The notes under the pieces: model-generated
The model's input: only the letters and a program-made list of their open reading frames with translations
Databases searched by the model: none
What the model was told of the DNA's origin: nothing
Origin: a virus
Virus record (IMG/VR): IMGVR_UViG_3300010354_013305
Coordinates: 1 to 31,920 of that record
Reading direction: 5' to 3' (one strand)
Length of the DNA stretch: 31,920 nt
Part shown: positions 2,915-31,920 of the stretch, piece by piece
Numbering within the stretch: the first letter of the stretch is position 1
Layout of the letters: every line of letters begins with the position of its first letter
Position numbers and translations under genes: made by a program

Positions 2915-5146
2915 TTAGTTGACAGTTTCTATAGCTATAGATTCTGATTTCAGTGAAATTTTACCATTGATGAAATCAATCTTAACAGTGCCCCCTTGTT
3001 TTAAAGCACCAAACAGTATTTCTCTGCTTAACGGACGCTTAATTTCTTTATCAATTACTCGTTGTAAAGGTCTTGCCCCCATTTTACGATCAAATCCCTG
3101 TTTAACTAGCTCATCGATAGCTTCATCGCTGATCTCAACATTGATGTTTTTATCTTTGATCTGTTCTTTAAGTTCAACAAGGAACTTACCTACAATCTTG
3201 ATCATAGTTACATCGTTAAGCCGATCAAACTTGACTACTCCATCTAATCTATTTCTAAACTCCGGTGCAAAGAATTTTTTCAGTTCTTTGTCATCGTGTT
3301 CTTTTTCTTGATGACCGAACCCTATGGCATTTCTGTCTGCTGCTTCTGCTCCTAGATTTGTAGTCATAATTAAAATTAAATTACGGCAATCAGCTTGTTT
3401 TCCGTTTGATCCAGTAACAAAACCGTTATCCATGATCTGTAGTAATACTGTACTTACATCCGGATGGCTTTTTTCAATCTCGTCTAGTAACAGCACACAA
3501 TGAGGGTTTTCTTGTAGTTTAGTAATTAGCAACCCTGCATTCTCTTCAAAGCCAACATAACCTGGAGGACTACCGATCAGCTTACTAACACTATGTTTTT
3601 CTTGGTATTCACTCATGTCAAACCTAATTAAAGGAATTCCTAGTTGCTTACTAAGTTGTTTAGCAGTTTCTGTTTTACCACAACCAGTAGGTCCGATAAA
3701 AACAAAGCTACCAATCGGCTTATTTTCTGCTTTAAGACCTGCTTGAGCAATATAGATCTTATCTACAATAGTTTCAATGGCAGAATCTTGTCCGTAGATT
3801 TCAGCTTTAAGGTTTCGATCAAGGTTGCTAAGATTGTTGTTTTCTTTGTGTTTAACTGTATCCTCGGGAATTCTTGTGGCTTTGCTTAGTTCGAATTGAA
3901 CATTTTCCACATCAACAGTTCGGTCAGTTTGCTGACTAAGCTTAAATCTGGAGCAAGCACAGTCGATTAAATCAATAGCTTTATCAGGCAGCTTTTTATC
4001 AGTTTGATATTTTACACTAAGACTAACAGCTGATCGAATTGCATCGTCAGTAATAGTAACTTTATGAAATTCTTCATAGTATTTTTTAATACCTAATAGG
4101 ATTTCAACAGCCATTTCAGCACTAGGCTCGTCGATAGTGATTCTTTGAAAACGACGCATTAATGCTCGATCCTTTTCAAAGCTTTTTCGATATTCTTCCC
4201 ATGTGGTACTAGCAACAACCTTGATGTCTCCTTTACTAAGTATAGGTTTCATCATATTAGCAAGATCGTTACTATTTTGATTAGCAGCACCAGCACCGCT
4301 CATCATATGAGCTTCATCAATAAACAAAATTGCTTTGCCTTTTTTCTGAAGAGCTTTAAGAACAACCTTAAATCGTTCTTCAAAATCACCACGATATTTG
4401 CTTCCAGCAAGCATAGCACTAATGTCAAGGTTGTATACTTTGTAGTCTTTTAAGAATTCTGGACATTTACCGTTAACAATATTGTAGGCTAATCCCTCAG
4501 CGATAGCAGTTTTACCTACACCGGGATCTCCTACAAGTAAGACATTACTTTTATTTCTACGACCTAAAGATAACGCAATTTGATCAAGCTCGTCTTCTCG
4601 ACCGATTACTGGGTCGATCTTAGTTTTCTTTACTTCCTCGTTAAGATTAGTAGTAAATGATTTTAGAGCTTTTTCAGCAGCATGGTCAGCTACTTGATCT
4701 TCCTCATCGCTGTCGATCTCTGTATTAAGATATTCTATGAACTTGTCTTTAGATATTCCAGCTTTTTGAATGTAGTAGAAAGCATAACTTTTCTTTTCAC
4801 TCATTACGCTTAAGAAAACATCGGTTAGTTCAATCTTTTGCCTACCACTAAACAAGACCTGTGTAAACGACCTATTAAGTACTCTTTCAACTGTATGAGT
4901 TTTCTTAGGCTTTGAATTTGTATCTTGTATGACGATATCACTACAGTTATTTTTAAGATAATGTTCGAGATTTTTCTTAATAAACTCAGTATCAGTTCCA
5001 AACCCAGATAACACTTTAACAAATCCATCCTCACATAACATGGCAAAAGTTAAGTGTTCTAAAGTAATATATTCGTGATTGAGTTTTTTAGCTATATCTA
5101 CAGCTTTTTCAAAAACAACCTGTAATTCATTGCTTGGTTCAACCAT
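2915..5146 (-). CDS. clpA: ClpA-like AAA+ unfoldase (Clp protease ATP-binding subunit)
   Basis: A 743-aa hexameric-unfoldase homologue that would feed substrates to ClpP. In order: a Clp N-domain (about 1-145); the first AAA+ module with Walker A GDPGVGKT (206-213) and Walker B ILFIDEAH (273-280); a short linker; the second AAA+ module with Walker A GPTGCGKT (485-492) and Walker B VLLLDE (551-556); and FRNRLD (630-635) near the arginine-finger region. The long coiled-coil M domain of ClpB is absent, so this is a protease-type ClpA rather than a disaggregase. A ClpP-docking IGF-type loop is visible at 608-610. The start overlaps the end of the deformylase gene by 8 nt, implying co-translation. 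No clpP or clpS lies in this window, so it may capture host ClpP. ClpA in a T4-like phage is unusual. Confidence 0.93.
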   Translation of the reverse strand: MVEPSNELQVVFEKAVDIAKKLNHEYITLEHLTFAMLCEDGFVKVLSGFGTDTEFIKKNLEHYLKNNCSDIVIQDTNSKPKKTHTVERVLNRSFTQVLFSGRQKIELTDVFLSVMSEKKSYAFYYIQKAGISKDKFIEYLNTEIDSDEEDQVADHAAEKALKSFTTNLNEEVKKTKIDPVIGREDELDQIALSLGRRNKSNVLLVGDPGVGKTAIAEGLAYNIVNGKCPEFLKDYKVYNLDISAMLAGSKYRGDFEERFKVVLKALQKKGKAILFIDEAHMMSGAGAANQNSNDLANMMKPILSKGDIKVVASTTWEEYRKSFEKDRALMRRFQRITIDEPSAEMAVEILLGIKKYYEEFHKVTITDDAIRSAVSLSVKYQTDKKLPDKAIDLIDCACSRFKLSQQTDRTVDVENVQFELSKATRIPEDTVKHKENNNLSNLDRNLKAEIYGQDSAIETIVDKIYIAQAGLKAENKPIGSFVFIGPTGCGKTETAKQLSKQLGIPLIRFDMSEYQEKHSVSKLIGSPPGYVGFEENAGLLITKLQENPHCVLLLDEIEKSHPDVSTVLLQIMDNGFVTGSNGKQADCRNLILIMTTNLGAEAADRNAIGFGHQEKEHDDKELKKFFAPEFRNRLDGVVKFDRLNDVTMIKIVGKFLVELKEQIKDKNINVEISDEAIDELVKQGFDRKMGARPLQRVIDKEIKRPLSREILFGALKQGGTVKIDFINGKISLKSESIAIETVN

Positions 5147-5651
5147 TTTTTTCGTATTTCCTTTTTTTCTTTTGTGCCATTTCTAATTTAAGTTTACTGA
5201 CTCGGTCAGTATAACATATTCCGTGTAAATGGTCAAATTCATGTTGAAAGCATTTGGCAAGATAGCCGTCGATTTTTACTTCTTCTATTCCTCCTCTTGC
5301 ATTAGTATACCTAGCCACAATCCATTCTGGTCGTGTAACAGTTAGCCAAATACCAGGGAAGCTTAGACATCCTTCGCGATCAAGTACCTTATTTTCGCTA
5401 ACTTCTATGATCTCTGGGTTAATAATAGCAAATGGTTTAGGGAAATCTCTAATCATATGCGACCCCATAACAAAGATTTGAGCATCTAACCCAACTTGAT
5501 TGGCAGCTAGACCGATACCTTGATTTTGGTGCATGATTTTAATCATCTCGGCTTCTACAGCCTGTGCGTCGTATTTGTTAAAGTCGAATATTTGAGTTGG
5601 TTTATGTAATAGATCAAAAGGATCATGCTGTAATGCTAGATCTAATGTCAT
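5139..5651 (-). CDS. def: Peptide deformylase
   Basis: A 170-aa Fe/Zn hydrolase that removes the N-formyl group from nascent proteins. All three family motifs are present: GIGLAANQ (45-52), EGCLS (93-97) and HEFDH (137-141). The metal ligands would be C95, H137 and H141, with E138 catalytic. It ends in a strongly basic tail (MAQKKKRKYEKNG). The gene overlaps the upstream J-protein gene by 29 nt and the downstream clpA by 8 nt, so the three are a tight translational unit. Phage deformylases are well known in marine T4-like phages, where they are thought to help process phage or host proteins during infection; the pairing with dnaJ and clpA is the notable part. Confidence 0.95.
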   Translation of the reverse strand: MTLDLALQHDPFDLLHKPTQIFDFNKYDAQAVEAEMIKIMHQNQGIGLAANQVGLDAQIFVMGSHMIRDFPKPFAIINPEIIEVSENKVLDREGCLSFPGIWLTVTRPEWIVARYTNARGGIEEVKIDGYLAKCFQHEFDHLHGICYTDRVSKLKLEMAQKKKRKYEKNG

Positions 5652-6453
5652 TTATATTTTTCCTTTGTTCATCAGTTAATTGTTTTGGGATATCAACAAC
5701 TACTCTTACATATAAATTACCTTTCATGCTATTTTGTTTGTAAGGTAATCCTTGGTTACTTAAGTTTAATACTGCAAACGGTTGTGTTCCAGGCGGAACT
5801 GTAACCTGTAGTTTTCGATAATCAATAGTATCAACAAATATGTTAGTTCCGAGTATAGCATCAAAGACATTGATATTAATATCTATTTGAAGATCTGCAC
5901 CTTGCCTTCTAAATCTAGGATGGGGAATTTCTTCTATAATAGCTATTAGATCACCTCGAGGCAGTTGATCAGAAGTATCATCCCCCATTCCTCGAAATCG
6001 AATTGCATCTCCTTTTTCTACTCCAGGTGGGATAAAAATATCAATGGTTTCTTCTCGTCCGCTAGGTAAACGCATAGATCCTATTATGTTTTTTCCAGTA
6101 AATATTTCTTCTAAAGTTAGTTGTACTTTTAGATTTACATGCTTATTTGGTTGTGTTCTTTGCCTAAATCCCTGACCGAACCTGGTACCGAACATATCGC
6201 CACCAGGTCCAAAATGAAAACTAAACCCTGGAAACCCAAATCCGCCCATTTGGTCTACTTGGCGTTGTTGGTCGTAGTTTTGTCTTTTATGTTCGTCGCC
6301 TAAAATACTATATGCTTCATTAATTTGCTTAAAGCGTTCTTCATTACCACCTCTATCTGGGTGGTGAGTCATAGCTAATTTTTTAAATGCCTTCTTAATG
6401 TCGTCTTGGTTAGCAGATTCTGCTACACCTAGTATTTGGTAGTAATTTAGCAT
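5623..6453 (-). CDS. DnaJ-like co-chaperone (CbpA type, no zinc finger)
   Basis: A 276-aa class B J-protein that would stimulate host DnaK ATPase and deliver substrates. A J-domain spans about 1-66 with HPD at 31-33, followed by a Gly/Phe-rich linker (about 69-98) and the paired beta-barrel C-terminal substrate-binding region (about 104-255, including IPPGVEKGDAIRFRGMGD). There are no cysteines, so the DnaJ zinc-finger domain is absent, as in CbpA. Its start at 6453 lies only a few nt after a terminator-like hairpin and lacks a normally spaced ribosome site, so expression control is unclear. It is the first gene of the dnaJ-def-clpA unit. Confidence 0.92.
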   Translation of the reverse strand: MLNYYQILGVAESANQDDIKKAFKKLAMTHHPDRGGNEERFKQINEAYSILGDEHKRQNYDQQRQVDQMGGFGFPGFSFHFGPGGDMFGTRFGQGFRQRTQPNKHVNLKVQLTLEEIFTGKNIIGSMRLPSGREETIDIFIPPGVEKGDAIRFRGMGDDTSDQLPRGDLIAIIEEIPHPRFRRQGADLQIDININVFDAILGTNIFVDTIDYRKLQVTVPPGTQPFAVLNLSNQGLPYKQNSMKGNLYVRVVVDIPKQLTDEQRKNINDIRSSITA

Positions 6454-6456
6454 GAG

Positions 6457-6485
6457 AATAAAAAGGACCGTAGAGAACGGTCCTT
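6457..6485 (-). terminator. Terminator-like hairpin directly before the dnaJ-like start
   Basis: AAGGACCGT (6463-6471) and ACGGTCCTT (6477-6485) form a perfect 9-bp stem with a 5-nt loop. On the minus strand it is followed by a T-rich tract that runs almost into the ATG at 6453. It would end the lysis/secreted-protein transcript. The only good Shine-Dalgarno sequence nearby (AGAAGGA) overlaps the 5' arm, so the same hairpin could also gate dnaJ translation. Confidence 0.6.
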
Positions 6486-6511: not shown

Positions 6512-6736
6512 TTATTTTTTGTCAGGTACTTTTGTTCCTTCGTGTTTTTGATGTACCTTAACTTCTTTACAGTCTTGTTTAGGCTTTTGTGTTTTCGGGT
6601 CCATGACTGGTTTTCCATCCTTACCTTGCACATCGACGCAGACTTTTTTGGTCTCTTGTTTCTTTTCAGCATCTGCGGCATATGCTGACATAGATAAGGT
6701 AATTGCTAGACCTAAAGCTAAGAAAATTTGTTTCAT
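6512..6736 (-). CDS. Small secreted lysine-rich protein
   Basis: A 74-aa protein with a clear Sec signal peptide (MKQIFLALGLAITLSMSAYA, likely cleaved after A20). The mature part is about 54 residues, very rich in Lys/Asp/Glu/Gln, with two cysteines (C33, C56) that could form a disulfide in the periplasm. The strong Shine-Dalgarno AAGGAG, 7 nt before the ATG, overlaps the stop of the o-spanin gene, so it is translated with the lysis cassette. The family is not recognised. A role in lysis or periplasmic defence is inferred from position only. The transcript probably ends at the hairpin at 6463-6485. Confidence 0.75.
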   Translation of the reverse strand: MKQIFLALGLAITLSMSAYAADAEKKQETKKVCVDVQGKDGKPVMDPKTQKPKQDCKEVKVHQKHEGTKVPDKK

Positions 6737-8233: not shown

Positions 8234-8953
8234 TTATTTTAGTTTTACGGCTATCCCATATCCTAGAGATTCGAGTACATGAAGATTTCCGATTTTGTGT
8301 ATGTTATAATCACCTAAATGCTTAATTAGGTATAGATTTTCTGCAACTGCTTTACTTTCTAGTTGAATTGCTCCAGTAATCCTAGATGTTAATTCATTAA
8401 TAGGCCCATGGTCAACTAGTTCAAATCTAATGAAATTGTTTTTGCTCTTTTTGATAATCAAGTTGTTATCTTGCATTACAACATTCTCTTTAAGAGTTTT
8501 ATGAAAAAAATTCTTGTAATTTTTTATATAATTTTCATTAATACTAACAGTATATTCTTGAGCAGTTTTAGGAATTTTTGTATTTAGGCTATCTTCAGTA
8601 GCATCTATACTATCAAAGTTTCTGTGATACCGAAATTTAAGATTTTCTATGCCAGTAAGCTTTTTTACACCGTCGACAATTTCCATAATATTAGACGGCA
8701 ATTTGCTATCTCTTTGTATTTCGACAAACACCTTATATTTTCCATCGTCAAGCTCGCCAGGACTTACATCGGCGTCGAGTACGAATCCAAAACCTTTTTC
8801 TATAAAGTTTACGAGATCGTTAGCTGCTTCTTTAATGTCGACTTCAAAACTAAGAACGCTAACATCAGAATCCTCACCCATTTTACTTGAGTAACTATCT
8901 ATTTCAAAGATTTCTTTAACTAGGTCTCGAAGGTCGTTTGCTCGTAAGGTCAT
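8234..8953 (-). CDS. Conserved-looking phage protein of unknown function
   Basis: A 239-aa soluble mixed alpha/beta protein without signal peptide, membrane segment or motif I recognise. The first half is acidic (GEDSDVSVLSFEVDIKEA), the second half basic and hydrophobic. Its ATG overlaps the stop of the upstream 172-aa gene (ATGA at 8950-8953), and it lies 10 nt before the endolysin, so the three are co-transcribed. Its place between a late-type promoter and the lysis genes suggests a late gene, possibly a virion component; this is positional inference only. Confidence 0.7.
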   Translation of the reverse strand: MTLRANDLRDLVKEIFEIDSYSSKMGEDSDVSVLSFEVDIKEAANDLVNFIEKGFGFVLDADVSPGELDDGKYKVFVEIQRDSKLPSNIMEIVDGVKKLTGIENLKFRYHRNFDSIDATEDSLNTKIPKTAQEYTVSINENYIKNYKNFFHKTLKENVVMQDNNLIIKKSKNNFIRFELVDHGPINELTSRITGAIQLESKAVAENLYLIKHLGDYNIHKIGNLHVLESLGYGIAVKLK

Positions 8954-11953: not shown

Positions 11954-12390
11954 AGATCGCCTTGTTTTCTGTTTTCGCTGTAAAATGGATCGAACTCTCC
12001 TCCAGGATATCTAGATTTAAGTTTATTAACATTTTCTGAAATGACTTCATTTGGATCGTAGCCTAATGCTCGACAGGCATTAATCCAATACCAAATAATA
12101 TCACCGAGTTCTCTTTTCATATGGAATCGGTTTTCTTCAGTATATGGTTTCCCTTGAAAAACCATTTTCTTAACGATTTCGTTAAACTCTCCGCCTTCAC
12201 TAGCAAGGCCTATACCTGCTGTGAGCAGTAATGAAATGTTTAATTCGATTCCGTCGATTGCTGCTTTACGCTCTAGATCATGCAAGCTAGTAATCAAAGA
12301 ATCTAAGCCGTTGCTTTGATTACTAGTAACTCCTGCTACAAAATCTTTGTATTTGTTTAAATCAACTTTTGGTTGGTGAAATTGTGACAT
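11950..12390 (-). CDS. mazG: MazG-like nucleotide pyrophosphohydrolase
   Basis: A 146-aa all-alpha NTP pyrophosphohydrolase. Metal-binding motif residues are visible: SEGGEFNE (E65, E68, E71), RELGD (E94, D97) and ENVNKLKSRYPGGEF (N120, K123). Phage MazG proteins have been proposed to alter host alarmone signalling or to recycle host nucleotides; the substrate cannot be told from the sequence. The likely start is ATG 12390 (or 12393), 4-7 nt after GAAAGG; the farther ATG at 12405 contains that ribosome site in its own codons. It overlaps the GroES gene by 29 nt. Confidence 0.9.
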   Translation of the reverse strand: MSQFHQPKVDLNKYKDFVAGVTSNQSNGLDSLITSLHDLERKAAIDGIELNISLLLTAGIGLASEGGEFNEIVKKMVFQGKPYTEENRFHMKRELGDIIWYWINACRALGYDPNEVISENVNKLKSRYPGGEFDPFYSENRKQGDL

Positions 12391-12706
12391 CATTAGGCCT
12401 TTCATCTGATGTCAACATTATAGCATCTTTATCAACACGACGCAAGGTAATTTCACCATTTTCGGTTTCTACAGTAAATCCTCTTGTCCAACGACCATGT
12501 TCTACACAAATCCATTCTCCAACTTTTACATCTTGTTGATCTGGACCGATTGCCCAAACTTTGGCCCATCGAGATTTAATACCGTGTGCCTTTCCGTCGT
12601 CTGAACTAATTATAATTCCTGAACTGGTTTTTTGTTCACCAAAATCCATGTCACTTACAAGAACAACATCTCTAAGTGGAACAAGCCTGCCTTTAATCGC
12701 ATTCAT
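12362..12706 (-). CDS. groES: GroES/gp31-type co-chaperonin
   Basis: A 114-aa co-chaperonin that would cap host GroEL. The Cpn10 beta-barrel pattern is visible: a basic start (MNAIKGRLVPLRDVVLV), a mobile-loop region with GEQKTSSGIIIS (about 23-34), then WAKVWAIGP and VKVGEWICVEHG. T4 uses gp31 to fold its large capsid protein with GroEL. The C-terminal extension after the barrel (about 92-114) is longer than bacterial GroES. Its ATG overlaps the stop of the 67-aa gene (ATGA). It adds to the protein-folding genes of this phage. Confidence 0.88.
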   Translation of the reverse strand: MNAIKGRLVPLRDVVLVSDMDFGEQKTSSGIIISSDDGKAHGIKSRWAKVWAIGPDQQDVKVGEWICVEHGRWTRGFTVETENGEITLRRVDKDAIMLTSDERPNDVTISPTKS

Positions 12707-17200: not shown

Positions 17201-17760
17201 GCTCCGATCGGCAATAATCCTGCCGGAGTAATCCAAGTTGGATTATCTGCTCCTTGAACTGGTATAATAAATGTACGATCACTAATAGAGTTATCACTAG
17301 ATCTACTAGCTCTTATCACAAATTTAAAATTCTTAGTTCTTGGTACTTGAAATGCTGCTCCGATAATGTTAGTTTGTGATATAAAAAGTCCAGGAGGGAG
17401 TTGTCCGCTAACTACAGTATAATTAAATAATCCTTTAACAGTACCGGACGCATTAGTTGGAAATAAATCAGATCCTGCTAATCTATAAGTGAAACTAGTT
17501 GAGTTAAGTTTAGAAATTACTATACCGTCTTTTATGCTAAATGAGCTATCAGAAGTACAAGATAGGGTAAATTGATCTCCTGCTATAAGATTTATAGCTT
17601 CTTGAGTTACTACAGTAACAATGTTATTAGTTCTAGAAATCGTTATTATATTATAAGTTTCAATCGGCAAAGGAATCTCGACACTACTAGCTTCGTTAAT
17701 AGCATCGAACTGATAGCCTGAATTCTGATTCCATACTGTTAATGGCATTATTTCGACCAT
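14296..17760 (-). CDS. Giant structural protein with Ig-like (He_PIG-type) repeats
   Basis: A 1154-aa virion-type protein with at least four LPPG repeats typical of putative-Ig (He_PIG/cadherin-like) domains: GQLPPGL, GSLPPGI, SLLPPGC and NKLPPGL. Each is followed by a TGxIxG-like strand and an (F/Y)xFxVxAxS strand. WITPAGLLP / WLTPSNLGF linkers recur between modules. No signal peptide. The start is either ATG 17760 (12 nt after AAAGG) or ATG 17748, which shares a base with the protease stop (TAATG); both begin the same protein. It is probably a long tail/baseplate-attached adhesin, and is translated straight after the subtilase. Confidence 0.82.
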   Translation of the reverse strand: MVEIMPLTVWNQNSGYQFDAINEASSVEIPLPIETYNIITISRTNNIVTVVTQEAINLIAGDQFTLSCTSDSSFSIKDGIVISKLNSTSFTYRLAGSDLFPTNASGTVKGLFNYTVVSGQLPPGLFISQTNIIGAAFQVPRTKNFKFVIRASRSSDNSISDRTFIIPVQGADNPTWITPAGLLPIGANNLTFILDNIPIDYPLLATDPDLPSGQQLTYLLKAGSLPPGISLTDDGRLVGIIGCLPYQSESDGDGTFDSNIFDSAPYDFTANNETGFSSFPYDSEEYDYSIPIDQPRRLNRYYEFIVSATDYETTVDRTFKIYVVADDFFTTDNTIMNVATGVFTADSTRVRTPVWLTPSNLGFKRANNYFTLYLDTLQNCENTGKILYTLEDTNPDGTPSLLPPGCDIDSLTGEILGYVKRQPAVTKEYKFTVTATSYDPDQLEPTVIYSYVYETVMRGDDGIKLYDPFSVDGTLDDQEAGSLVGIKLLMDDTYYTIESYEVKDDHNYFYFDRPVDIDDVTGLYDVIGYDESLYSSTETRTDGVILAYDAATGDNEIIINPLTIPRSRVESRYFNWDGVEYRFGNARDLPLSQGPYQAITITNVERPELGLEADIPFDTDLLSFIPKKSEIGPGDTLIKRLVLFASEGDTVSDSKTFTINVIGEIDSSIRWITDPYLGNLKTGTQSILNVQAESLINNNLITYSLSSTRYNTDGRLNKLPPGLTLTRYGNIAGTVNLYGSELYNDIPVKFNFNSDIINIPSTFSASIKPGWIIRNENLPGGQAEITFVNGTKIFVNKLALNNITANSSFIKNPDKDGILRFYDIINGQKQYTSYDNNLTTFDKSYTFTVEAKDQFNYSITSRTFRIDIDTTDTKVYSNVYIQPLPKIEKREKWTRFVTDPSIFDPSILYRQDDPAFGIQIEQKMLLFAGIETKQAEIYANLAESNFKRRRLNFGKVKTAQAKKNGSNNVEYEIVYVELIDPYSQVAGSVKIPINDNNKQLYVNTTPYNTIEGPLNDKIAELSEPYPMIYRPQFADLDIFSDVITVDSDNLSKVYPASIKNMRNKIKQAGANNQEYLPLWMLTPQQGTTKILGYTLAVPICYCKPGHATTIMNKIKLLKFDFKTFDFEFDRYVITAVESYDNPKYIKFNSAAWNV

Positions 17761-19322
17761 AATCTAAAACTACCTTTAAGATCATAACCAATATTTTTGG
17801 CGTAAGGTGAGTATAAGAATTTATTAGGTCCTCCTTGTAGGCTTCTGCTATTGCTGTAGTCATTGTCGAGACCAGACGAATATAATTGATTAGTTTTAGA
17901 AGCTACATTATTCAACCAATCTTTACACTGTTGTGAAGTTGCATGAGGGTTAACTTGTAAAAATAATGCTAATAATCCAGTTACTTGCGGAGCTGCCATT
18001 GATGTTCCTGAAATTCTAGCTATTTTATAAGTACTTGACCCTGGATAATATAACCAAGAATAGTTTGTACTATTATTTGTAGCAGAAGTAATGTATGTTC
18101 CGGGAGCTGCGATATGAACTCCCGGACCTCTTTCTGAGCTCGATGAAAGTTGTTCTGTTGAAGAATCATAAGATGTAGCGTCAACATTTGATACAATGAT
18201 TGTATCAGCACTCCACGGTGTTCCACCACGGTGGTAGTATATGGGATCACCAGCTGGTATAATTCCGTAGGCAAAATCAGCAGTGTAAGTATAATGATTA
18301 TCCCAATCTAGTCCTCCGGGAAGATCAATTTTATGATAATAGTTTCCGGCAGCTCTAACAACAATAACTCCAGCGTCAGTTAGTTCTTCTTGGTTGACAT
18401 CGTCTGGACCGTATATTAAGGTGTGCGCACTATTAACATTACCCCAATTAGAACTAGTTGTTGTTCCTCTATTAATACCTCTATAATTAATAGCTGATAT
18501 ACTTCCACCTAGACCGTTATTATTATAATACCAACGATACCCCCAACTTTGATTTACTATAGTTGGCCTTCTAGATCCAGTTTTTGGATCAATTGGCTTT
18601 TTTAAGTGCCACATTCTAATAGCATCAAATGCATCAGCATCTAAGTAATCGTATCTTGCAGAGTAAATTTTAGCACCTTTAGCCCATCCGTACAACTTAC
18701 CTGCTGCTATTCCTGCTACATGAGATCCGTGATTTCCTACATCTCCGTAGTGCCCTGTCATCATAGCGCCCGGCAACCCCGAGACTGCATACCAATCATG
18801 CTCAATGAATCTAGTTTCCCCATTGTTGTCTAACCATTCAGGATGTCCTGATTGTACGCCGTTGTCATGAATTACAATATCAACGCCAGTGCCGTCGATA
18901 CAATAATCATAATTTGATCCTAATGATTGTTGTACAATCGATTCGACTGAGGATCTTCTCAACCCCCAATTTACTTGATCTTGAGAAATAATCGCTGTTC
19001 CTCGTGTAAAGTTACCGTATTGTATGGCTCCATGTGCTTTAAGATCAGGGGGCGCGGGTACAGCTATCGCTGCTACTCTTGGGTCATTTTTTAAAATTAA
19101 GGCTTCTTGATCAGTTAACGCATAATGACAACTTCGAATACTACCTGGTCGATTATTAACAATATCTACTATTCGATCAGGAATAGTAGACAGGTTTTGT
19201 GTATTCGACTCCATATCATTCCAGAATTCGTCATGATTAACATCTTTTTTAAGAGAAACTATATATTCTCTTTCAGGTTCTGTTGGTGCTGGAGAAGCTT
19301 CTAACGGGTCGTTTATTTGCAT
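17748..19322 (-). CDS. Subtilisin-family serine protease (S8)
   Basis: A 524-aa protease with an intact triad: D153 in IVIHDNG, H198 in GNHGSHVAG and S441 in SGTSMAAP, plus the oxyanion Asn in RAAGN (N327). Residues about 18-95 resemble an inhibitor-type propeptide (REYIVSLKKD ... AAIAVPAPP). There is no signal peptide, so it is not exported by the host Sec route; it may act in virion assembly or be carried on the particle. It lies between two adhesin genes, 10 nt after one and overlapping the other, with AAGGA 5 nt from the ATG. A subtilase inside a phage fibre operon is unusual; fibre maturation or host-surface digestion are the leading options. Confidence 0.93.
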   Translation of the reverse strand: MQINDPLEASPAPTEPEREYIVSLKKDVNHDEFWNDMESNTQNLSTIPDRIVDIVNNRPGSIRSCHYALTDQEALILKNDPRVAAIAVPAPPDLKAHGAIQYGNFTRGTAIISQDQVNWGLRRSSVESIVQQSLGSNYDYCIDGTGVDIVIHDNGVQSGHPEWLDNNGETRFIEHDWYAVSGLPGAMMTGHYGDVGNHGSHVAGIAAGKLYGWAKGAKIYSARYDYLDADAFDAIRMWHLKKPIDPKTGSRRPTIVNQSWGYRWYYNNNGLGGSISAINYRGINRGTTTSSNWGNVNSAHTLIYGPDDVNQEELTDAGVIVVRAAGNYYHKIDLPGGLDWDNHYTYTADFAYGIIPAGDPIYYHRGGTPWSADTIIVSNVDATSYDSSTEQLSSSSERGPGVHIAAPGTYITSATNNSTNYSWLYYPGSSTYKIARISGTSMAAPQVTGLLALFLQVNPHATSQQCKDWLNNVASKTNQLYSSGLDNDYSNSRSLQGGPNKFLYSPYAKNIGYDLKGSFRLWSK

Positions 19323-29481: not shown

Positions 29482-29510
29482 ATTATAAATGACTTAATAC
29501 CAATTGTCAA
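29482..29510 (-). promoter_or_regulatory. Perfect consensus sigma70 promoter for uvsE
   Basis: Minus strand: TTGACA (29510 to 29505), 17 bp, TATAAT (29487 to 29482): all 12 consensus bases at optimal spacing. Six nt then separate the -10 from ATG 29475, so transcription should start on the A of the start codon. It lies over the 3' end of the glycosyltransferase gene. Confidence 0.85.
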
Positions 29511-30192
29511 CAATTACGGCATCTTTAACCTGATGAACTTGCGGAAATCCATGAAATGCCAGAATTGAAGTATCTTTATGTAATTTAGGACTTATATTAT
29601 CTTTAAACCGAGTTTGTTCTCGGTATCCTAGCAAATCACTCTTTTTTCTAACTTCCCACTTATAGCTTAGTATCCAATCTCTAGGATAAAAGTTAATGGA
29701 GTTTTTATGCATGTACCAAATCCAGTCTTGATCTCCATGAAATTTTTTGCTGATTGATGGATCTTTTGCGATAGATTCCCATATATCGGAGTATGAACCA
29801 GCAGGCCATCGCATTACAGCACTGCCAAGCTTTTTTGAATCTGGTCTAAATACTCTTGTTGGGTCCTGAAGACCCATAAACTTTTCAGGTTGATAAGTGA
29901 TTAATTTGTCGATGTTTTTAACTATGACCATGTCTAGATCAATTGAAAAATTGATATCTCCAGAATTAAACAAATCTCTTTTAAAGAAGTAAGGTTTATA
30001 CCACCAACCTTGAAGACCGTTGATATTAGGCAATGGCAAAACCTCGATCTCTGATTTTAAACCGTTTGTATTTTCGGTAAAGCAGATAAATCGATGAGGA
30101 ATAGACAGATTCCTCTTAACCATATTAAAAAGTCTATTAACATAGTCACTAGAATATTTTGTACCGTGTTTTAGACAAATAATGTTGAGCAT
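29494..30192 (-). CDS. Small glycosyltransferase (GT-A type)
   Basis: A 232-aa cytosolic enzyme resembling family-8-like or capsule-type glycosyltransferases. It has the nucleotide-sugar DxD motif as SIDLDMVIV (DLD at 85-87), an acceptor-side HGDQDWI (152-158), and conserved-looking LQGWWYKPYFF (60-70). It has no membrane segment. It overlaps the end of kdsA by 22 nt, so it probably acts with it, for instance adding a sugar to a surface glycan or to phage components. The donor and acceptor cannot be told. No clear ribosome site precedes the ATG, consistent with coupling to kdsA. Confidence 0.8.
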   Translation of the reverse strand: MLNIICLKHGTKYSSDYVNRLFNMVKRNLSIPHRFICFTENTNGLKSEIEVLPLPNINGLQGWWYKPYFFKRDLFNSGDINFSIDLDMVIVKNIDKLITYQPEKFMGLQDPTRVFRPDSKKLGSAVMRWPAGSYSDIWESIAKDPSISKKFHGDQDWIWYMHKNSINFYPRDWILSYKWEVRKKSDLLGYREQTRFKDNISPKLHKDTSILAFHGFPQVHQVKDAVIVDNWY

Positions 30193-30977
30193 TGATGAAT
30201 AGAAGTTAGTTGGTGAATTAACCCTAACATATTATTAATGTTAATCATATTTGGTCCATCACTTGGAGCATTGTCCGGATCCTGATGGCATTCTATGAAT
30301 ACACCATTAACATAACCGCTTGCTACAGCAGATCTCGCCAACGACGGTACCATAGACCTGTCTCCCCCTGATGATGTTCCCATACTGCCAGGTTGTTGTA
30401 CACTATGGGTGGCGTCATATACCACTGTATACCCGGTGCTTGCCATAATTGGAAAGCTGCGCATATCGACAACAAGGTTGTTATATCCATGGGTTGCTCC
30501 TCTTTCACACAGCATTATATTAGTATTTCCTGTGCTTGAAATCTTGTCTGCGACATTTTTCATATCAGCGGGTGCAAGAAATTGTCCTTTTTTAACATTT
30601 ATCCATTTTCCTGTTTCTCCTGCGGCTATTAATAAATCGGTTTGTCTACAGAGAAAGGCTGGAATTTGTAATACATCTATTCCAGCATGAGCAGCTAGCT
30701 CGGCCTGGTAACTTTCGTGTATATCGGTTAAAACAGGAATTTGAAATCGTTGTTTAATATGACTTAATATTTCTAATCCTTTTTCTATGCCAACACCTCT
30801 AGTAGACCTGTAACTAGACCGGTTAGCTTTATCAAAACTACTTTTATAAATTAAGGGAACTCCTAGTTCTTCGCAGATATCCTTGAGTCTAGAAGCCATC
30901 ATTAAAGCATGATCTAAACTTTCAATTTGACATGGACCTGCAATGAAAAATAGTTTGTTTTTTTCTATATTAAACAT
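30171..30977 (-). CDS. kdsA: 3-deoxy-8-phosphooctulonate synthase, metal-type
   Basis: A 268-aa enzyme that condenses arabinose-5-phosphate and PEP into KDO-8-phosphate, the precursor of the lipopolysaccharide inner-core sugar. Family blocks: AGPCQIES (13-20), KSSFDKANRSS (45-55), QIPAFLCRQTDL (104-115), NVKKGQFLAP and YDATHSVQ. All four residues of the metal-binding site known in the metal-dependent class are present: C16, H191 (DATH), E229 and D240 (APSD). E. coli KdsA lacks the Cys and is metal-free, so this is the Aquifex-like class. It overlaps the dadA-like stop by 8 nt with GAGG 6 nt before the ATG. A KDO enzyme in a phage is unusual. Confidence 0.93.
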   Translation of the reverse strand: MFNIEKNKLFFIAGPCQIESLDHALMMASRLKDICEELGVPLIYKSSFDKANRSSYRSTRGVGIEKGLEILSHIKQRFQIPVLTDIHESYQAELAAHAGIDVLQIPAFLCRQTDLLIAAGETGKWINVKKGQFLAPADMKNVADKISSTGNTNIMLCERGATHGYNNLVVDMRSFPIMASTGYTVVYDATHSVQQPGSMGTSSGGDRSMVPSLARSAVASGYVNGVFIECHQDPDNAPSDGPNMININNMLGLIHQLTSIHQCSTLFV

Positions 30978-31920
30978 CTACGCCTCTAATTAATCGAACT
31001 AATTGATATGCAGTTGTTGGTGCCAATGTCCAACCTAAATGTCCGTGTCCTACATGATAAAACACATTAGATTCCTTCTTGCTCTGTCTAACTATGGGCA
31101 TCATATTTGGTGTCATAGGACGCAGACAGGCCCAACTCTTATAATCTCTAGTGTCTACAAGTGGGAAATTTTCTCTTACCCATTTTAACAATGGTTCAAT
31201 CCTATCTCTGCGAATGTCCCAATTATCGCCTGTGATTTCCGCAGTGCCTGCGACCCTTAGACTATTATTAAATCTACTACTAACAATCTTTGCTTCGTCG
31301 TCTAATAGACTTACACTAGGACTATGAGTTCTGGATTTCTCATTATCTAAATTAATTGTGATACTATACCCTTTAACAGGATAGATAGGCAGTTTATCGC
31401 CTATGACTTTACTAAAGTGTCTGGCATCGCTGCCATTTGCGACAACAATATAATGATAGGCAAATCCATCTATCGTGTTTATAGGTTTGTTAAAGAAAAA
31501 TCTCACATTGTATTTGGTTTTCAATACTTCATACATAGCCATACAGAATTTATGTATGTCACCAGTCCAGTCACTGGGGGTATAAATTCCTCCTATGAGG
31601 TCTTTGGCATATTGCAAATTTGGTTCAACATTAAGTAACTTATCCGAATTTACTACCTGCCATTCACATCCGTTACCTTGATATAATTCTTGTAGTAGTA
31701 GGGCTTCTTCAAAATATTTTTTACTTTTATAGACGTGAAGAATACCCTTGTTCAGTCTTTCATACTCTATGCCTTCGTCCTGTTCAATTTGGTTATACAA
31801 GTGCCGGGCTTCGATGCCCATGCGAATAGTTTCTGCGGTATTTCTTGCCCATTCGTTGGTAGCAGTATGGTAAAGAAACTTTGTTAACCATTTGGCCTTG
31901 TCCCAGTCTAGACTAGGTCG
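30970..31920 (-). CDS. DadA-like FAD-dependent amino-acid oxidoreductase (5' end off window)
   Basis: The frame is open from the right edge (33 codons precede the first internal ATG at 31821), so the N-terminal FAD-binding GxGxxG region lies outside the window; 316 aa are visible. Family features: the FAD-domain body, YIVVANGSDARHFSKVIG, PVKGYSITI, and the C-terminal GHGHLGWTLAPTTAYQL, close to the GHGTLGWTMA signature of D-amino-acid dehydrogenase. The expected reaction is oxidative deamination of a D-amino acid (or a related amine) with electrons passed to a quinone. It is the first visible gene of the kdsA-glycosyltransferase group. Sarcosine or glycine oxidase relatives cannot be excluded. 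Confidence 0.85.
   Translation of the reverse strand, partial: RPSLDWDKAKWLTKFLYHTATNEWARNTAETIRMGIEARHLYNQIEQDEGIEYERLNKGILHVYKSKKYFEEALLLQELYQGNGCEWQVVNSDKLLNVEPNLQYAKDLIGGIYTPSDWTGDIHKFCMAMYEVLKTKYNVRFFFNKPINTIDGFAYHYIVVANGSDARHFSKVIGDKLPIYPVKGYSITINLDNEKSRTHSPSVSLLDDEAKIVSSRFNNSLRVAGTAEITGDNWDIRRDRIEPLLKWVRENFPLVDTRDYKSWACLRPMTPNMMPIVRQSKKESNVFYHVGHGHLGWTLAPTTAYQLVRLIRGVDV

Follow-up and report, generated by a model that had tools for sequence, protein, structure and literature searches.

Gene Content of the Locus

The window analysed here is the whole 31,920-base virus record IMGVR_UViG_3300010354_013305, which represents a fragment of its genome. On the minus strand it carries three overlapping genes for protein quality control, dnaJ (5623..6453), def (5139..5651) and clpA (2915..5146), which will be referred to as the cassette. 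The overlaps of 29 nucleotides (nt) between dnaJ and def and of 8 nt between def and clpA, on which the original prediction of a phage proteostasis operon was built, were confirmed exactly.

Proteins were identified using Pfam and NCBIfam profiles. The dnaJ product (276 amino acids) consists of a J domain, a G/F-like linker and a DnaJ_C region, matches the DnaJ and DnaJ_C models, lacks the zinc finger and carries the HPD motif (residues 31–33, codons at 6355..6363, minus strand), which is retained in every complete phage J domain examined; it thus belongs to the class B (CbpA/DnaJ2-type) J-proteins. Its closest solved structure is DnaJ2 of T. thermophilus (6psi), matched over residues 3–264. 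The def product (170 amino acids) scores 143 bits with Pep_deformylase, above the cut-off, and 135.6 bits with TIGR00079 (cut-off 104), and with the active-site motifs GIGLAANQ, EGCLS and HEFDH all intact it is a peptide deformylase. The clpA product (743 amino acids) is composed of an N domain (Clp_N), two AAA+ modules with Walker motifs (D1 and D2) and ClpB_D2-small, the ClpB middle domain being absent. The best model, TIGR02639 (ClpA), gave 888 bits and remained below the equivalog cut-off of 993; the protein is therefore named a member of a phage ClpA-like subfamily and not an equivalog of bacterial ClpA. Residues 6–725 match E. coli ClpA (1ksf), and the tripeptide IGF (residues 608–610, codons at 3317..3325, minus strand) aligns with the IGL loop by which E. 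coli ClpA docks on ClpP.

Gene Order in Related Phages

A tblastn search detected ClpA relatives in 213 GenBank phage records, all below 60% identity, and a scan of viral contigs with the window ClpA yielded at least 594 confirmed relatives, the best of the matches listed showing 74% identity. A scan seeded with the window DnaJ alone gave no matches, its patterns being too specific. Additional scans were seeded with ClpA of Agrobacterium phage Atu_ph07 and Pseudomonas phage PA5oct, and the resulting set of 203 phage loci was grouped into 128 clusters at 90% identity. One candidate, L004 ("Acinetobacter phage MD-2021a", CAKLQF020000008), was rejected, as with its neighbouring rpiA, argC and clpS-clpA genes it looks like bacterial chromosome. 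Of 15 records, 9 were found to encode the major capsid protein of the Gp23 family, the near relative G001 among them, and the group is therefore T4-like. Phage J-(def)-clpA loci were also observed on four contigs assigned by binning to Neomarinimicrobiota, Pacearchaeota, Rickettsiales and Pelagibacter (L124, L126, L127, L128), which are probably misbinned phages or else give hints on hosts.

Gene order was counted in the 114 of the 128 clusters having at least 1.5 kb of upstream sequence. In 106 of them clpA is preceded by a J gene of the same orientation, with the order J-def-clpA in 56, a direct J-clpA neighbourhood in 44 (35 with a long and 9 with a short J gene) and J farther off in 6; the remaining 8 have none. 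Two architectures occupy this upstream place, a class B protein of ~280 amino acids and a J-domain-only protein of ~130 amino acids. Isolates are represented as well: Sinorhizobium phage Phosso shows J-def-clpA, Atu_ph07 J-clpA, and in PA5oct J and clpA are 10 nt apart. RaK2, 121Q and Vibrio 2.275 possess clpA and no adjacent J gene. In most def-bearing relatives J and def overlap by 20–38 nt, and the commonest def/clpA overlaps are 1, 8 or 17 nt. Since the overlaps recur and the order is found in more than 100 clusters, the arrangement is more than chance; the search for synteny in phage genomes proposed with the original prediction clearly demonstrated that it is not confined to one genome. 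Among 75 bacterial clpA loci, which are the nearest in sequence and biased to spirochaetes, deltaproteobacteria and clostridia, clpS is located upstream in 72 and a J gene in none.

The ClpP-docking loop is present as [IVL]GF in 125 of the 128 phage ClpA clusters by an alignment-based count; the exceptions, IGM, IGV and IGV, are 121Q, RaK2 and Vibrio 2.275, all without the J gene. Mean identity among the phage ClpAs is 42% in the N domain compared to 61% in D1 and D2, and the N domain of bacterial ClpA also diverges faster (36% compared to 59%).

In a tree of ClpA a fully supported branch separates the phages from 14 bacterial ClpAs, the deep order being unsure owing to a quick method and several long branches. 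On this tree the state of def changes 15 times and the presence of J once. As def comes and goes and J-clpA is stable, the core of the unit is dnaJ-clpA, and def is an optional gene inserted at one constant position. The three-gene unit originally proposed thus stands as a conserved and widespread proteostasis unit with the same gene order, although with two core genes instead of three.

Expression Signals

Of 58 non-redundant loci with a long J gene, 38 show a sigma-70 site matching at 11-12/12 positions in the 100 nt preceding dnaJ, compared to 36 of 5,800 random windows (0.6%). In 19 of these 38 loci only 5–8 nt separate the end of the −10 box from the dnaJ ATG, so that transcription would yield a leaderless dnaJ mRNA. 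The −10 box of the remaining 19 is located 23–39 nt before the ATG inside a strong hairpin, judged by eye to be mostly followed by a T-run; a strict automatic hairpin and T-run test scored 8, one of them a short-distance site. The terminator of the upstream transcript seems to be superposed on the dnaJ promoter in the hairpin loci. A second sigma-70 site occurs ~125–135 nt before clpA inside def, and just before clpA in several loci lacking def. Of 37 def genes, 29 contain a promoter-like site of this kind; under synonymous recoding only 2.3 would be expected to do so. No such site was detected before J in the 12 short-J loci. An 11/12 site precedes only 1 of 12 ClpP genes of relatives, so the dnaJ/clpA type of promoter is not generally shared. 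The two promoters of the relatives suggest that dnaJ and clpA would be expressed early and under separate control.

In the window, a terminator-like hairpin is located at 6463..6485 (in minus-strand reading AAGGACCGT TCTCT ACGGTCCTT, followed by TTTATT; z = −4.05) and ends 9 nt before the dnaJ ATG. Relatives bear a sigma-70 promoter at this place, either merged with a hairpin or alone. A weak sigma-70-like site inside def (10/12; 5208..5236, minus strand) is perhaps a by-product of coding HEFDHLHGICYTD; it was rejected as clpA promoter, since it overlays the coding region of a conserved deformylase motif and is off the position of the 11-12/12 sites of relatives. Within the window def and clpA each carry their own AGGA-type ribosome-binding-like site, which does not bear out the translational linkage read from the overlaps; nor is a single transcript of all three genes borne out, as relatives possess separate dnaJ and clpA promoters.

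ClpP, ClpS, DnaK and GroEL in Relatives

A ClpP-family gene (PF00574) was detected in 28 of 32 larger records of relatives (19 of 20 and 9 of 12), in most cases a canonical ClpP with catalytic triad. The ClpPs of four relatives from the clade of the window score 254–302 bits with the ClpP subfamily model (cut-off 249), and that of PA5oct falls just under with 236 bits. All five canonical ClpPs tested score under the cut-off of the head-maturation-protease model. The tested proteins keep the Ser-His-Asp triad and the N-terminus LVPMV...DIYSRLL, aligned with solved ClpPs, and the ClpP-like protein of G009 fails the same test. In several records (PA5oct-type, Atu_ph07; H160–H168, H181–H182) canonical ClpP is annotated as "head maturation protease", and the models favour ClpP. 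Among the ClpP genes of L214, L216, L217, L220 and L225, some contain a 10-residue insertion (MIHRVSSGTPGTRGSVHVQELQFEDAKR) after the catalytic His region and others do not, so that two ClpP types, with and without MIHRVSSGTPGTRGSVHVQELQFEDAKR, occur in one phage group.

ClpS was found in 13 of 20 records; the search gave no match in the near relatives G001, G005, G006 and G007, some of which are fragments. DnaK is present in only 1 of 20 records, and the J-protein would consequently have to use DnaK of the host, as originally proposed. The sole DnaK (902 bits, full-length) is encoded within positions 75700–88500 of L218 (the record of L037), ~0.7 kb from a ClpS gene. GroEL was detected in none of the 15 records searched. 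Thus J-protein, ClpA and ClpP are supplied by these phages, with a GroES-like protein as well in the window, and DnaK and GroEL, rare or absent in the records, are borrowed from the host. The protease, judged from gene content, is probably phage-owned, and the genome of which the window is only a 32-kb fragment presumably carries a ClpP gene too. That the phage ClpA steers ClpP of the host, as had been supposed, is probably wrong given the ClpP-family genes of the relatives.

Neighbouring Genes and Further Features of the Window

The phage GroES announced for another part of the window is real but weak: the GroES/gp31-like co-chaperonin gene (12362..12706, minus strand), which lies outside the cassette, scores 28 bits with PF00166 (cut-off 21.1). 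It follows the same helper-only strategy as the cassette. In transcriptional orientation, dnaJ is preceded by a gene for 74 amino acids (6512–6736), two small genes, which by look and place may be of the spanin type, and an endolysin gene. Downstream of clpA follows a gene (2459–2872) matching phage structural proteins. The conservation of these neighbours was analysed in the 37 clusters with 40–50% identity to the window ClpA: an adjacent J gene is present in 33 and a 2459–2872-like gene in 34, and in fetched flanks of the same clusters a gene like that at 8234–8953 (gp8234-like) was found in 24 and PhoH in 18. The spanin-type genes occur in 2 of these clusters, the endolysin and the 6512–6736 gene in none.

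Between clpA and the gene at 2459–2872, a long inverted repeat of ~16 pairs (2878–2908; z = −5.6 as RNA) was observed; its loop contains CATAAATA, which resembles a T4-type late promoter and is located ~10 nt ahead of the next ATG. A 524-amino-acid protein of the subtilase family (17748–19322; Peptidase_S8, 107 bits) is encoded amid tail and structural genes. The block at 29494–31821 has the appearance of sugar or cell-surface functions and includes an enzyme of the DAHP/KDO-8-P synthase family (223 bits), with a FAD-oxidoreductase-like neighbour and a glycosyltransferase-like gene, both by look only.

Proposed Function and Alternatives

Taken together, we consider the most likely function of the unit to be a phage-encoded ClpAP protease that receives its substrates from a dedicated J-protein by way of host DnaK, with a probability of about one half. 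The cassette would provide this phage-owned protease with its ATPase and its Hsp70 co-chaperone. The ring of phage ClpA would use the IGF loop to dock on a ClpP that is most likely encoded elsewhere in the phage genome. The J-protein would capture unfolded or chosen proteins and load them on host DnaK through the HPD motif, and clients bound to DnaK would be refolded or passed to ClpA for unfolding and destruction. Candidate substrates are misfolded phage proteins, host proteins or defence proteins. Def, where present, would have the accessory function of deformylating the burst of new phage proteins. A link of def to clpA through fMet degrons was dropped, because def is optional and PMC4745127, from unpublished results of the same authors, gives FtsH as the identified protease. 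Formation of the complex, the hand-off from J-protein and DnaK to ClpA and the early timing are what we infer, the coupling of J to ClpA being the least certain, and early timing would apply to the phages with host-type promoters. In a more specific version, which we hold to be rather doubtful, the J-protein would serve phage ClpA as its dedicated adaptor, in the place that ClpS has in bacteria; expressed early from host-type promoters, in some phages on a leaderless mRNA, it would divert host DnaK from refolding to the delivery of chosen host or defence proteins to phage ClpAP for destruction.

Several observations weigh against a phage-owned ClpAP. ClpP is absent from the window, and in relatives its gene is sited away from clpA. 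Three relatives (G003, G009, G010) possess a divergent ClpP-like protein only, and in 4 of the 32 larger records (G004, G021, G022, G026) the ClpP family was not found; nearly all of these larger records may be fragments. RaK2 and 121Q carry clpA without an adjacent J gene. Both promoters of the relatives are missing in the window, where the best site before dnaJ reaches 9/12 and only the hairpin at 6463–6485 is present. Finally, the linkage of J to clpA is partly block synteny, as the PhoH, gp8234-like and 2459–2872-like genes are conserved as well.

The cassette might instead serve virion assembly, with J-protein and host DnaK, ClpA as an ATP-driven unfoldase, and the GroES-like protein with host GroEL folding and assembling large tail and fibre proteins and proteolysis being secondary. 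This is a possible explanation, though not a likely one. It agrees with the position of the cassette between lysis and structural genes, with a structural-protein gene following clpA in most relatives, with virion proteins found by mass spectrometry that are encoded after clpA of PA5oct, and with the folding and assembly roles proposed for phage J-proteins and ClpA (PMC7824862). Against it stand the retention of the ClpP loop in 125 of 128 ClpAs and the co-encoded canonical ClpP, and dnaJ and clpA of relatives have dedicated host-type promoters and do not rely on their late neighbours.

A further alternative is redirection of the host protease, in which phage ClpA would compete with host ClpA and ClpX and send host proteins to host ClpP. 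The intact IGF loop, the four phages in which ClpP was not found and the fast-evolving N domain, which is the site of adaptor and substrate binding, are all compatible with such a function, but the own ClpP-family gene in 28 of 32 records and the likewise faster-evolving N domain of bacterial ClpA make it unlikely. We regard as more improbable still that the genes are a general stress insurance topping up host proteostasis and that their order reflects vertical block synteny without functional coupling. The authors of the Atu_ph07 study (PMC6102473) suggested that Clp and DnaJ aid host survival of infection, and the PhoH, gp8234-like and 2459–2872-like genes likewise stay near at 40–50% ClpA identity. 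Nevertheless, J keeps its place beside clpA where lysis genes and the small 6512–6736 gene have been replaced, two J architectures occupy one place, and the promoters belong specifically to dnaJ and clpA.

Relation to Known Systems and Significance

The unit shares with bacterial clpS-clpA and ClpAP (E. coli ClpA 1ksf, ClpP 1tyf) the domain plan of ClpA, the docking loop, a partner gene directly upstream and, in phage relatives, canonical ClpP. In contrast, the phage partner is a J-protein, phage ClpS, when present, is located elsewhere, the phage ClpAs form a separate group, and clpA of relatives has its own promoter inside def. Individual genes of this kind have been named singly in jumbo-phage papers (PMC6102473, PMC11242549, PMC7824862, PMC12619734). 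Atu_ph07 encodes ClpA gp292, DnaJ gp293, ClpP gp676 and ClpS gp708 (PMC6102473), and Sinorhizobium phage AP-J-162 encodes the adjacent deformylase gp154 and DnaJ gp155 (PMC11242549). These phages and Phosso possess the same genes in adjacent J-clpA or J-def-clpA order (def-DnaJ in AP-J-162), and Atu_ph07 and Phosso have their own ClpP and ClpS; their published accounts proceed gene by gene with tentative roles, and order, breadth, optional def and promoters are undescribed there. The Moraphages (PMC12619734), likewise large aquatic phages, have ClpA as core gene, and DnaJ and DnaK occur; unlike the unit described here, they are mostly predicted Bacteroidota phages, with gene linkage and ClpP undescribed. 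Rki of phage RB43, defined by experiment, is a phage J-domain protein acting on host DnaK; it is toxic and DnaK-dependent, stabilises sigma-32 and does not behave as a generic co-chaperone (PMC3486835). No linkage of Rki to clpA is described; the window protein has a DnaJ_C substrate-binding region. Phage peptide deformylases of cyanophages and Vp16 (PMC5591237) share the active-site motifs, whereas the window enzyme has 170 amino acids and is embedded between dnaJ and clpA. A 2026 jumbo-phage review (PMC13282480) mentions neither Clp nor DnaJ, and a literature search, whose coverage left out most subscription papers, found no description of the J-(def)-clpA unit.

If the proposed function is true, a large and mostly uncultivated group of phages supplies an ATP-dependent protease that is coupled to host Hsp70 by a dedicated co-chaperone, and only the large chaperone engines DnaK and GroEL are borrowed from the host. 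Isolates are available: Phosso, with Sinorhizobium as host, and the PA5oct-type phages, which grow on P. aeruginosa PAO1. The unit would then represent a general phage route to the removal of host proteins and a natural hand-off from Hsp70 to ClpAP that is directly testable.

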